Shown one piece after another: positions 14,256 through 23,037 of a stretch of DNA of 47,915 nt. Every line of letters begins with the position of its first letter. The stretch's first letter is position 1. The position numbers and the translations under genes are program-made. The notes under the pieces are model-generated. The model saw only the letters and a program-made list of their open reading frames with translations. It did not search any database and had not been told where the DNA came from. The stretch is from Armatimonadota bacterium (GTDB lineage Bacteria > Armatimonadota > Hebobacteria > GCA-020354555 > CP070648): NCBI GenBank assembly GCA_020354555.1, contig CP070648.1, positions 4,417,033-4,464,947 on the forward strand, read 5' to 3'.

Positions 14256-14264
14256 TGCTATAAT
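14256..14264 (+). promoter_or_regulatory. Extended -10 promoter, leaderless
   Basis: TGCTATAAT, a perfect extended -10, ends 9 bases before the ATG at 14274. The predicted start point is about 14271, so the transcript would have almost no leader. No good -35 is seen (TTACCC at 14234 is weak, spacer 19), as expected for an extended -10. Confidence 0.65.
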
Positions 14265-14273
14265 CGGGGGGCT

Positions 14274-14618
14274 ATGGATGGCAGTGCAAACCGCCGCGAG
14301 CCGCATGACGTCACGCTGCACGACGTGCGGCAACTCGTCCACCGCCGCATCGAGCGCTACCTGCGGCGCAGCCCGTATCGCTTGTTCCCCGACGAGACAG
14401 TCGTGCGTAGCCTCGTCACCCGCCTCGCGCGCAACCTCGTCGCGCACGGCCGCCAGTACTGCCCGTGCCGCAAAGTCACCGGCGACCGCGCCGCGGACCG
14501 CCCCAACATCTGCCCCTGCCGCACCCACCGCGCCGAGATCGCCCGCGACGGCCACTGTGAATGTCGGTTGTTCGTCAGCCAGGAATTCATCGAGCGCCGG
14601 TCAAACGATAAGCCGTAG
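14274..14618 (+). CDS. Ferredoxin:thioredoxin reductase catalytic-type protein
   Basis: 114 residues. Six cysteines occur in three pairs: C63-P-C65, C80-P-C82 and C95-E-C97, giving CPC-X14-CPC-X12-CEC. The classical plant and cyanobacterial enzyme has CPC-X16-CPC-X8-CHC, with a [4Fe-4S] cluster next to a redox disulfide. By that mapping C63, C80, C82 and C95 would bind the cluster and C65/C97 would form the disulfide. The catalytic-subunit identity is well supported, but the usual His of CHC is Glu96 here. No variable subunit gene is nearby. It probably passes electrons from ferredoxin to a thioredoxin-like protein; the gene 28 bases downstream encodes such a partner. There is no usable Shine-Dalgarno, and it is probably leaderless. 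Confidence 0.85.
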   Translation: MDGSANRREPHDVTLHDVRQLVHRRIERYLRRSPYRLFPDETVVRSLVTRLARNLVAHGRQYCPCRKVTGDRAADRPNICPCRTHRAEIARDGHCECRLFVSQEFIERRSNDKP

Positions 14619-14646
14619 GCAATCTCGGGCGAAGGGAGGAGAAACG

Positions 14647-15177
14647 ATGTCACTCGCGATCGGAGATCAAGCGCCGGACTTCGAACTGCCGGGAGTGGAC
14701 GGACGCAACTACACACTCGCCGACTTCGCGGATATCCCCGTCTTGGCCGTCATCTGGTCGTGCAACCACTGCCCGTACGTCGTCGCTTACGAGGACCGCA
14801 TGGTGCAGCTCCAGCGCGACTACGCCGACAATGGCGTGCAGTTCGTGGCGGTCAATTCCAACGACGAGCGCCGCTACCCGGAGGACGATTTCGATCACAT
14901 GGTCGAGCGCGCCCGCAGCAGGGACTTCAACTTCCCGTATCTGCGCGACGAGGCCCAGACGGCGGCGGAAGCCTACGGCCCGGCCGTGACCCCCGAGGTA
15001 TTCCTCTTCAACGTGGACCGCGAGCTCGTCTATCGCGGGCGCATAGACGACAACCCCGACAACGCGGCGGCGGTGAAGAAGCACGACCTGCGCGAGGCGC
15101 TCGACGCGCTGCTCGCAGGCGAGGCGATACCGACGCCCCAGACCGATGCCGTCGGCTGCAGCGTGAAGTGGAAGTAG
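14647..15177 (+). CDS. Thioredoxin-fold (AhpC/TSA-like redoxin) protein
   Basis: 176 residues. It begins IGDQAPDFELPGVDGRNYTL, the start typical of peroxiredoxin and redoxin folds. It has a C39-N-H-C42 motif in WSCNHCPYV and the conserved FVAVNSNDERRYPEDDF stretch. The CNHCPYV group is a widespread 'thioredoxin family protein' rather than a proven peroxidase. AGGGAGG lies upstream of the ATG. The gene is 28 bases after the FTR-like gene, so the two form an operon in which this protein is the likely electron acceptor or partner. Cys171 in VGCSVKW near the C-terminus is also conserved-looking. Confidence 0.88.
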   Translation: MSLAIGDQAPDFELPGVDGRNYTLADFADIPVLAVIWSCNHCPYVVAYEDRMVQLQRDYADNGVQFVAVNSNDERRYPEDDFDHMVERARSRDFNFPYLRDEAQTAAEAYGPAVTPEVFLFNVDRELVYRGRIDDNPDNAAAVKKHDLREALDALLAGEAIPTPQTDAVGCSVKWK

Positions 15178-15342: not shown

Positions 15343-15546
15343 TCAGGCGGCTGCCTGAATGATGCTCTGCAGGCCGGAAACGGACTCCTCGATCTCGCTG
15401 ATCTTGTCATTGCAGCGCGCGATAAGCCGATTCGCCTGCGCCAGAGGGTCGGTCCGCTTGCGCCGGATCACCTCAATGGCGACGACCAGGCTCGCGGCGA
15501 ACGCCAGCCCGCCGAGGATCAGCCACTTCTCACCATTCTTTGACAT
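15343..15546 (-). CDS. Small membrane-anchored coiled-coil protein
   Basis: 67 residues, family not recognised. One transmembrane helix (about residues 8-26, WLILGGLAFAASLVVAIEVI) is followed by a basic patch (RRKR) and an amphipathic, probably coiled-coil segment (DPLAQANRLIARCNDKISEI). The ATG has GGAG 8 bases upstream. A possible promoter with TATAAA lies about 65 bases upstream. It is probably an inner-membrane protein with a cytoplasmic helical tail. Codon pattern and start context both support it as a real gene despite its size. Confidence 0.65.
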   Translation of the reverse strand: MSKNGEKWLILGGLAFAASLVVAIEVIRRKRTDPLAQANRLIARCNDKISEIEESVSGLQSIIQAAA

Positions 15547-20835: not shown

Positions 20836-21909
20836 TTGACCCATCGCGAGCGCTTCGTGCGCACTATGCACTACGAACCCGTGGACCGCATCCCGGTCTG
20901 GGATTTCGGCTTCTGGGAGCAGACCATCGCCGAGTGGCGCAAGCAGGGGCTGCCCGAGGGCGTGTCAACCGACGAGTTTTTCGGCATGGACAAGCAGTGG
21001 CACGGCGTCCCCGTCAGCCTCGGCATGATCCCCGGGTTCGAGGAAATCATCTACGAGGAGGACGAGGAAACCCAACTCGTGCGCGACGGCGGCGGCGTCG
21101 TCTGCCGCCGCTCCAAGAGCGGCACCAGCATCCCGACTTTCGTCGAGTTCCCGGTCAAGAATCGCGCCGACTTCGAGGCGATGAAGGAGCGCTACGACCC
21201 CGACGACCCGCGCCGCTATCCCGCGGATTGGGACGAGCGCGTCAAGCAGTATCGCGATCGCGACTACGCCCTCGGCATCGGCGGCGGCGGCTTCTTCGGC
21301 TGGGTGCGCGGCTGGATGGGCGTGGAAAACACCTGCATGTGCTTCCACGACGACCCGCAGCTCATGCACGACATGATGCACTTCGTCGCCGACTTCGTGT
21401 GCCGCGTCATCGAGCGCGCCCTCGCCGAGGTCGAGATAGACTACGCGTCGTTCTGGGAGGACATGGCGTACAACAAGACGTCGCTGATATCCCCCGCGAT
21501 GTTCCGCGAGTTCATGGTGCCGCGCTACCAGAAGATCACGGGCTTGCTTGCCGCCCACGGCGTTGACGTGAATGTCGTGGACTGCGACGGCAACATCGAG
21601 GAGCTGATCCCGCTGTGGCTCGAGGGCGGAGTCAACTGCATGTTCCCGCTCGAGGTCGGCGTGTGGGGCGCCAACGCCGTCGAGTATGCGCAGCAGTACG
21701 GCCGCGAGTTGCTGATGATCGGCAACATCAGCAAGCGCGCCCTGTCGGGCAGTCGCGCCGACGTCGAGCGCGAGGTGATGTCGAAAGTCCCCCCGCTCGT
21801 CAAGCGCGGCGGCTACATTCCAACGCCCGACCACCGCGTCCCGCCCGACGTCCCGCTCGCGAACTACCAGTACTACCTCGAGTTGATACGGCAAGTGGCG
21901 GTGGGGTAG
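20836..21909 (+). CDS. Uroporphyrinogen decarboxylase (URO-D) family protein
   Basis: 357 residues with a TTG start, GGAG 8 bases upstream, beginning at the family-typical THRERFVRTMHYEPVDRIPV. The TIM-barrel URO-D fold has FEEIIYEEDEET, SFWEDMAYNKTSLISPAMF, and a C-terminal VVDCDGNIEELIPLWLEGG. Members of this subfamily are thought to be corrinoid or methyl-transfer related or uncharacterised; there are no haem genes near. Canonical MtaA/MtbA-type metal ligands (HxC...C) are not seen: the positions read D-C-D-G and, at the end, P-D-H. It is followed by a close paralogue 21 bases on, so the pair forms an operon. Cytoplasmic. Confidence 0.85.
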   Translation: MTHRERFVRTMHYEPVDRIPVWDFGFWEQTIAEWRKQGLPEGVSTDEFFGMDKQWHGVPVSLGMIPGFEEIIYEEDEETQLVRDGGGVVCRRSKSGTSIPTFVEFPVKNRADFEAMKERYDPDDPRRYPADWDERVKQYRDRDYALGIGGGGFFGWVRGWMGVENTCMCFHDDPQLMHDMMHFVADFVCRVIERALAEVEIDYASFWEDMAYNKTSLISPAMFREFMVPRYQKITGLLAAHGVDVNVVDCDGNIEELIPLWLEGGVNCMFPLEVGVWGANAVEYAQQYGRELLMIGNISKRALSGSRADVEREVMSKVPPLVKRGGYIPTPDHRVPPDVPLANYQYYLELIRQVAVG

Positions 21910-21930: not shown

Positions 21931-23037
21931 ATGACACCCGGCCAACGCTTACGTGCGACATATGAGTTCCAGCCGATAGATCGCCTCTACCGCACCGAGT
22001 TCTACATCTGGGAAGAGGCCATCGCGCGCTGGAAAGCCGAGGGCCTGCCGGACGACTGGGCCGAACGGAACTTCTTCGACTTCGATCCCGCCGGCAGATT
22101 CGACACCGGCGTCAACCTCGGTTGGTGCGAGCCGCCCTTCATCCCCGCCTTCGAGGACAAGGTCGTCGAAGCCCACGGCGACTACGAGATCATCCAGGAC
22201 GTCGCCGGCAGGCTGCTCAAGGTCTTTACCGGCAGAAGGCACGGCTTCATGCCGGTCTACCTCAACCACGTCGTCACCGGCATGGCCGATTGGGAAGCGG
22301 TAGCCCCGCGGCTCGATCCGGGCAATCCGACGCGCTGGCATGGCCTGGCCGACACCGTCCGCGCGCGCCGCGAGGAGGCCGATGAAGCGGGCGGCCTGCT
22401 CACCCAGCGCGTCATCGGCGGCTACATGTATCTGCGTTCGCTGATCGGGCCCGAGGATCTGCTCTACATGATTCACGACCAGCCCGACGTGATCCGCGCC
22501 GCGATGCGGGGGTGGCTCGACCTGATGGATGCCGCGCTGGCGTTCGTCCAGGCGGAAGTCGAACTCGACGAGGTGTTCATCGCCGAGGATATCTGCTACA
22601 ACCACGGGCTGCTTATCTCACCCGCGAGCATGCGCGAGTTCCTGCTGCGCTACTACGACGAACTGCTGACCAAGGCGAGATCGCGACAGACGCGCCCGCT
22701 GCATTTCCAGGTGGACACCGACGGTGACTGCCGCCCCGCGATTCCGCTCTACCGCGAGGTCGGCATGACGGCAATGTCGCCGTTCGAGGTCGCCGCCGGG
22801 TGCGACGTCGTCGAGATCGCGAAGCAGTACCCCGATTTGGTCATCCTGGGCGGCATTGACAAACGCGTGCTCGCGGCGGGGAAGGGTGCGATCGAATCGG
22901 AACTGCGGCGCATCATCCCGTTCATGCTCGACCGCGGCGGGTATTACCCGACCTGCGACCACGGCGTGCCGGACAACGTCAGCCTGGAGAGCTACCTCTA
23001 CTACCGCCGCCGTGTCTGCGAGCTGGATCACGGGTGA
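21931..23037 (+). CDS. Uroporphyrinogen decarboxylase (URO-D) family protein, paralogue
   Basis: 368 residues, paralogous to the gene just upstream. Shared features are an N-terminal ATYEFQPIDRLYRTEFYIWE, the barrel segment FIAEDICYNHGLLISPASMR, FQVDTDGDCRPAIPLYREVG, and the final YYPTCDHGVPDNVSLESY. Where the first has D-C-D-G-N, this has D-T-D-G-D; the final D-H is kept. Both lack the HxC motif of methylcobamide:coenzyme M methyltransferases. It may form a heterodimer with its neighbour, or the two may have different substrates. No close ribosome-binding site is visible before the ATG, and translation may be coupled to the preceding gene. Confidence 0.85.
   Translation: MTPGQRLRATYEFQPIDRLYRTEFYIWEEAIARWKAEGLPDDWAERNFFDFDPAGRFDTGVNLGWCEPPFIPAFEDKVVEAHGDYEIIQDVAGRLLKVFTGRRHGFMPVYLNHVVTGMADWEAVAPRLDPGNPTRWHGLADTVRARREEADEAGGLLTQRVIGGYMYLRSLIGPEDLLYMIHDQPDVIRAAMRGWLDLMDAALAFVQAEVELDEVFIAEDICYNHGLLISPASMREFLLRYYDELLTKARSRQTRPLHFQVDTDGDCRPAIPLYREVGMTAMSPFEVAAGCDVVEIAKQYPDLVILGGIDKRVLAAGKGAIESELRRIIPFMLDRGGYYPTCDHGVPDNVSLESYLYYRRRVCELDHG

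Follow-up and report, generated by a model that had tools for sequence, protein, structure and literature searches.

An uncultured sediment bacterium of the phylum Armatimonadota, whose genome is a single 4.88 Mb contig, carries two adjacent genes that probably encode a two-protein relay, in which electrons would pass from ferredoxin to a small FTR-type protein and from there to a redoxin with a CNHC active pair, the first gene probably being transcribed nearly without a leader. The genes lie in the 47,915-nucleotide stretch of contig CP070648.1 that was analysed here (the window), and positions given below without a locus number refer to it. The path from ferredoxin through the FTR to the redoxin, put forward in a first-pass annotation of this DNA, is well supported by comparisons of sequences and gene neighbourhoods. 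The best reading is that it represents a third variant beside plant-type FTR, which has histidine in the last Cys-x-Cys motif, and ferredoxin:disulfide reductase (FDR), which has tyrosine there. FTR relatives that lack a variable subunit and have redoxin partners are already known; what appears to be new is the glutamate type and its pairing with a redoxin of the PRX_like1 family, and no description of either was found in the literature searched.

The FTR-type protein

The first gene (14274–14618, forward strand) encodes a predicted FTR/FDR catalytic-type [4Fe-4S] disulfide reductase of 114 amino acids with the pattern CPC-x14-CPC-x12-CEC. The first-pass annotation had already recognised it as an FTR catalytic-type protein, in agreement with the score of the Pfam model FeThRed_B (PF02943), 68 bits against a curated cutoff of 22, and with the six-cysteine pattern C63-P-C65, C80-P-C82 and C95-E-C97, which aligns with 1dj7 and 4tpu. 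It is the only FTR-type gene in the genome. A search of the PDB with a profile of eight close FTRs retrieved only FTR and FDR chains (4tpu, 7pwe, 1dj7, 2pu9, 7bzk and their relatives), with all six cysteines aligned. Likewise, every structure matched by the AlphaFold model (pLDDT 85.6) at E≤0.001 was an FTR or FDR, the best matches being a glutaredoxin/FDR fusion (7pwe) and the FDR of Methanosarcina (4tpu).

By homology to plant-type FTR, we take C63, C80, C82 and C95 to hold the cluster and C65 and C97 to form the redox disulfide. The first CPC (codons at 14460–14468), which is aligned with the CPC of 1dj7 and 4tpu, would thereby provide a predicted cluster ligand, C63, and one half of the active-site disulfide, C65. 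C80 and C82, predicted to be further ligands, belong to the second CPC (14511–14519), aligned with its counterpart in the same two structures, and C97 is the predicted second half of the disulfide. The last motif, C95-E96-C97 (14556–14564), has glutamate at the place of histidine in the plant-type CHC and of tyrosine in the CYC of FDR. In FDR, tyrosine replaces histidine, in agreement with the CYC motif in the alignments with 4tpu and 7pwe. The CEC motif is invariant in all eight FTRs of alignment A1. The glutamate, which the first-pass annotation overlooked, is the feature that sets the variant apart, and its presence in place of histidine or tyrosine puts to the test what is accepted about the part this residue plays in the FTR mechanism.

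The CNHC redoxin

The second gene (14647–15177, forward strand) encodes a PRX_like1-type redoxin of 176 amino acids with a thioredoxin fold. As the first-pass annotation had it, the gap between the FTR stop codon, which ends at 14618, and the redoxin ATG at 14647 is exactly 28 bases, and the protein carries the pair C39-N-H-C42 (codons at 14761–14772), an N-terminal CxxC followed by P43. A ribosome-binding site, GGAGG (14635–14639), lies 7 bases 5' of the ATG. The CNHC motif, a TP turn at residues 115–116 and a C-terminal cysteine, Cys171 (codon at 15157–15159, in a VGCSVKW tail), are invariant in all 12 FTR-linked redoxins of alignment A2. Cys171 is also present in three solved homologues. 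In Pfam, the protein matches Redoxin (71 bits) and AhpC-TSA (66 bits), both over the cutoff. Its solved relatives 2cvb/2ywo and 2ywi share 43% identity with it, and the AlphaFold model (pLDDT 92.9) matches 2cvb/2ywo, 2ywi and 3u5r with TM scores of 0.92–0.95. These solved PRX_like1 redoxins, from Thermus (2cvb/2ywo), Geobacillus (2ywi) and Sinorhizobium (3u5r), share the fold and the C-terminal GC[STN]xKW motif with the window redoxin, and 2cvb and 2ywi have CNHC as well, but no FTR link is known for any of them. A second close homologue of the window redoxin was not found in the genome, which contains one weak partial match.

Since the best families are Redoxin and AhpC-TSA, the weaker structural matches include true peroxiredoxins, and a cyanobacterial survey put PRX_like1 among the peroxiredoxins (PMC3514251), the protein could be thought to destroy peroxides, with the FTR as its dedicated reductase and with oxygen defence of an anaerobe as the role of this ferredoxin-dependent peroxidase. 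We consider such a role unlikely because the TxxC peroxidatic motif of typical peroxiredoxins is absent: the residue three before C42 is C39, so that the threonine position is occupied by the first cysteine of a thioredoxin-type CxxC. According to the same survey, the site lacks the other catalytic residues, and no activity has been proven (PMC3514251). Moreover, the cysteine of the AACTPDF sequence of other PRX_like1 proteins is absent here, with TPEVF in its place, and the folds that come next after the solved PRX_like1 proteins are those of ResA-type thiol oxidoreductases.

Directly downstream of the redoxin gene, the reverse strand (15343–15546) encodes a predicted protein of 67 amino acids with an N-terminal hydrophobic stretch and without a Pfam match. 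Farther along the window, two genes of the URO-D family stand in tandem (20836–21906 and 21931–23034); such genes often encode corrinoid methyltransferases and not enzymes of haem synthesis.

Conservation of the gene pair

A CEC-type FTR is encoded in 10 of 291 Armatimonadota genomes, and in all ten the redoxin gene lies directly downstream; the record CSMAG_2722 belongs to one of these genomes, G282. Across 16 related FTR loci from Armatimonadota, unclassified bacteria, Planctomycetota and Bathyarchaeota, a redoxin adjoins the FTR in 13, and the flanks differ. A search for the same pair in other genomes, which the first-pass annotation had suggested as a check, therefore gave a clear answer: the two genes stay together as a unit in different phyla, and the genes around them change. 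Clustering of the gene families around the loci revealed no third conserved gene, and the remaining shared neighbours are confined to close relatives. Adjacency extends to L028 and L030, both from MAGs of Planctomycetota, and to L029, from a Bathyarchaeota MAG in which the two genes are divergently oriented. The junction varies, as several FTR and redoxin genes overlap by a few bases (TGATGG) and others are spaced. In the bathyarchaeal FTR (L029, 3962–4291), tyrosine replaces the first cluster cysteine (YPC, not CPC); either a ligand has truly been lost or the sequence contains an error.

Divergent CEC FTRs of two Planctomycetota loci (L056 and L062) have no adjacent redoxin, and a redoxin that nests within the FTR-linked set is encoded elsewhere in the genome. 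For L062, this redoxin and the FTR share a contig and are about 5 kb apart, separated by a long reading frame on the reverse strand. In the planctomycete genome G463, a reading frame of 1375 codons (L200, 2501–6628, reverse strand) separates the redoxin from the CEC FTR, and the pair looks as if it had been split by an insertion. The only genome with a CEC FTR that yielded no such redoxin at E 1e-20 is the fragmentary bathyarchaeal G294 (L031).

Distances among the FTRs are correlated with those among the redoxins (Mantel r of 0.70 for 13 pairs and 0.67 for 15 pairs, reached in none of 20,000 permutations), a correlation from which joint inheritance and a common species history cannot be told apart.

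Partner redoxins of the FTR subtypes

We compared 73 FTR-type proteins and their neighbours from Armatimonadota, Planctomycetota, Bathyarchaeia and other groups; the identities of the partner redoxins were spot-checked by Pfam. The CEC sequences form one side of a branch in the tree (SH-aLRT 93). Where a redoxin was recognised, the CHC types adjoin a thioredoxin in 22 of 22 cases, the CYC types are immediately preceded by a glutaredoxin, usually with an overlap, in 22 of 23, and the CEC types adjoin a CNHC redoxin in 13 of 13, counts that are not independent because the members within each group are related. The thioredoxins have WCGPC, except for WCPPC in a locus of Paceibacterota (L033), and the remaining CYC case, a Nanohalarchaeota locus, has a thioredoxin-fold protein with SHCPHC. 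No crossed pair of FTR subtype and redoxin occurs among those of the 73 proteins that have a recognisable adjacent redoxin; because the best-scoring 30 loci per group were sampled, this partner rule is a strong tendency in the sample and not a census. A well-supported subgroup of Planctomycetota FTRs (L071, L073, L076, L077 and L084) has CCC, CSC or CNC as its last motif, and no redoxin was recognisable next to its genes.

It is mainly because of this switching of partners among FTR types that we believe in direct contact between FTR and redoxin. The pattern suggests that FTR-type enzymes diversified by swapping the redoxin partner and one active-site residue in step; the plant chloroplast system, the FDRs of methanogens and the anaerobic bacterial form would then belong to one series. 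Whether the CEC proteins constitute a third, glutamate-type class of [4Fe-4S] ferredoxin:disulfide reductases dedicated to CNHC PRX_like1 redoxins is an evenly balanced question; in such a scheme, the residue in the last CxC motif would mark the partner (histidine for thioredoxin, tyrosine for glutaredoxin, glutamate for PRX_like1), and the FTR would be the first electron donor assigned to the orphan PRX_like1 family. The PRX_like1 family is widespread and includes several solved structures, and the literature searched assigns it neither a function nor a reductant. The gene pair provides these redoxins with a candidate electron donor that is directly testable.

PRX_like1 proteins are encoded in 127 of the 291 Armatimonadota genomes, of which 117 have no CEC-type FTR; the family must therefore have other reductants elsewhere. 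Given such a wide distribution, plain co-occurrence of FTR and PRX_like1 was rejected as evidence, and weight was placed on adjacency and on a subfamily score. Full-length FTR-linked redoxins score 311–337 bits for the subfamily, as compared to at most 278 bits for the rest, and the match of the G008 redoxin is partial, with 251 bits. Four residues, Q56, N95, R100 and I133, are common to the FTR-linked redoxins and uncommon in others, and are candidates for contact residues. The FTR-linked redoxins were not found to form one clade, as four label changes are needed on the tree. The closest redoxin without an FTR, in the Armatimonadota genome G250 (L123, 1154–1471 and 1381–2031), follows a small CxxC protein that weakly resembles DUF2703 and is possibly a substitute partner.

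Several observations count against the relay: PRX_like1 mostly occurs without a CEC FTR, the FTR-linked redoxins do not group as one clade, G294 yielded no such redoxin, the L029 FTR has tyrosine for its first cluster cysteine, and a regular thioredoxin reductase, which could reduce the redoxin, is encoded elsewhere in the window genome. The first and the last would also fit a shared thiol regulon without electron exchange between the two proteins, in which the FTR reduces a general thioredoxin and TrxB/Trx reduces the redoxin. We regard this arrangement as quite improbable, because only the FTR and redoxin genes stay together across phyla and because each FTR subtype adjoins its own redoxin family, a regularity that is hard to explain without contact.

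Relation to known systems

FTR-type enzymes that function without a variable subunit, on redoxins other than or besides thioredoxin, have precedents (PMC6262447, PMC7278568). The first-pass annotation, which compared the pair with the systems of plants and cyanobacteria, missed these known FDRs (4tpu, 7pwe). The window FTR shares the fold, the six-cysteine pattern and the lack of a variable subunit with the FDR of Methanosarcina (4tpu) and with the Desulfotalea psychrophila fusion (7pwe), at 35% and 28% identity, respectively, in structural alignments. As a glutaredoxin/FDR fusion, 7pwe is also a precedent for the coupling of an FDR to a redoxin without a variable subunit. However, FDR has tyrosine (CYC) where the window FTR has Glu96 (CEC), and the partner here is a CNHC PRX_like1 redoxin and not a glutaredoxin. 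In contrast to archaeal FDR, the window FTR has no C-terminal rubredoxin domain: it ends 17 residues past the last cysteine, and FeThRed_B is its only Pfam match.

Another related arrangement is that of the CHC-type FTRs of Planctomycetota and their thioredoxins (L055, L063), where the order is likewise FTR and then redoxin. Their junction is often short or overlapping, and in the tree they share a side with the CEC group. They differ from the window pair in having histidine instead of glutamate and a WCGPC thioredoxin instead of a CNHC redoxin.

The nearest NCBIfam model, NF041072, scores 102 bits with the window FTR, up to 119 with other CEC types and 60 with a CYC type. This model describes an FtrB with CxU twice (PMC13188914), and selenoprotein lists contain the double-selenocysteine FtrB and, separately, a UxxC redoxin (PMC13188914, PMC9312934). 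Membership of the window FTR in this double-selenoprotein family was rejected, as its score is below the curated cutoff of 160 and all six positions have cysteine codons and no selenocysteine codons.

The fold of the catalytic subunit and the aligned CPC/CPC/CxC cysteines are shared with plant and cyanobacterial FTR (1dj7, 2pu9, 7bzk), but a plant-type system with an unrecognised variable subunit is hardly credible, because PF02941 has no match in the whole 4.88 Mb genome (with a positive Synechococcus elongatus control), which extends to the genome what the first-pass annotation had said of the neighbourhood, because the window FTR is closer to the variable-subunit-free FDRs 4tpu and 7pwe than to plant FTR, and because its motif is CEC, not CHC. 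Plant and cyanobacterial FTR is a heterodimer with a variable subunit, has histidine in CHC and works with a WCGPC thioredoxin, none of which applies to the window FTR.

Proposed electron transfer

In the proposed relay, reduced ferredoxin would supply single electrons to the [4Fe-4S] cluster predicted for the small FTR-type protein, where this cluster and the C65–C97 disulfide, with Glu96 in place of histidine or tyrosine, would combine two such electrons in a single two-electron reduction. Once reduced, C65 and C97 would in turn reduce the C39–C42 disulfide of the CNHC redoxin encoded next to the FTR, and the redoxin may then serve protein targets as a thiol-disulfide oxidoreductase. A low-potential ferredoxin is a plausible donor because the class to which the window genome belongs is described as anaerobic and as having ferredoxin-dependent enzymes, Rnf and the Wood-Ljungdahl pathway (PMC10290634). 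Transcription of the pair would begin at the first ATG or at most about 3 bases from it, and the redoxin would be translated from its own GGAGG site.

Transcription start of the FTR gene

An extended -10 promoter element, TGCTATAAT (14256–14264, forward strand), ends 9 bases before the FTR ATG at 14274, exactly as stated in the first-pass annotation. The 9-base stretch between them, CGGGGGGCT (14265–14273), contains no usable ribosome-binding site. From the usual distance between a -10 element and the start site, the transcript is predicted to start within 14265–14273 or at the ATG itself, with a leader of about 0–3 bases. Both strands of 848 kb of the window genome (66% GC) contain only 47 copies of TATAAT and 13 of TGnTATAAT, too few for the occurrence of TGCTATAAT at the FTR gene to be due to chance. 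The site is missing from the output of a generic sigma-70 scan, since it lacks a good -35; the TG extension is present, and the element is an extended -10.

The position of the element relative to the ATG recurs in homologues. A TAnnnT sequence ends 9 bases before the FTR ATG in L005, L006, L008 and L009 and 10 bases before it in L003, and four of these five members of the class with the conserved spacing have TTGACG 17–18 bases further up. Because the spacing recurs upstream of these five homologues, near-leaderless transcription of the FTR gene is likely. The arrangement is confined to the class of the window genome, being absent in L004, L007, L022 and L043 and in the planctomycete L028 and L030, and therefore the leaderless spacing is a trait of the class and not a part of the relay. 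The leaderless reading of the first-pass annotation thus gains from a 9–10-base spacing seen in six genomes and does not carry over to the other pairs.

Across the 848 kb, -10 elements show no overall enrichment 6–10 bases before all possible start codons. Of the 47 sites with exact TATAAT, 5 are placed 7–9 bases before a coding-like start, as opposed to 8 at all remaining distances between 0 and 20. The window genome seems to contain a minority of leaderless genes, so support for the leaderless start of the FTR gene comes mainly from its homologues. Other TATAAT sites located 7–9 bases before a likely start are found in L166 (9711, reverse strand), L167 (7132, forward), L186 (10995, forward) and L190 (14922, reverse), with reverse-strand positions counted along the reverse complement; the genes behind these sites are candidates for leaderless transcripts.
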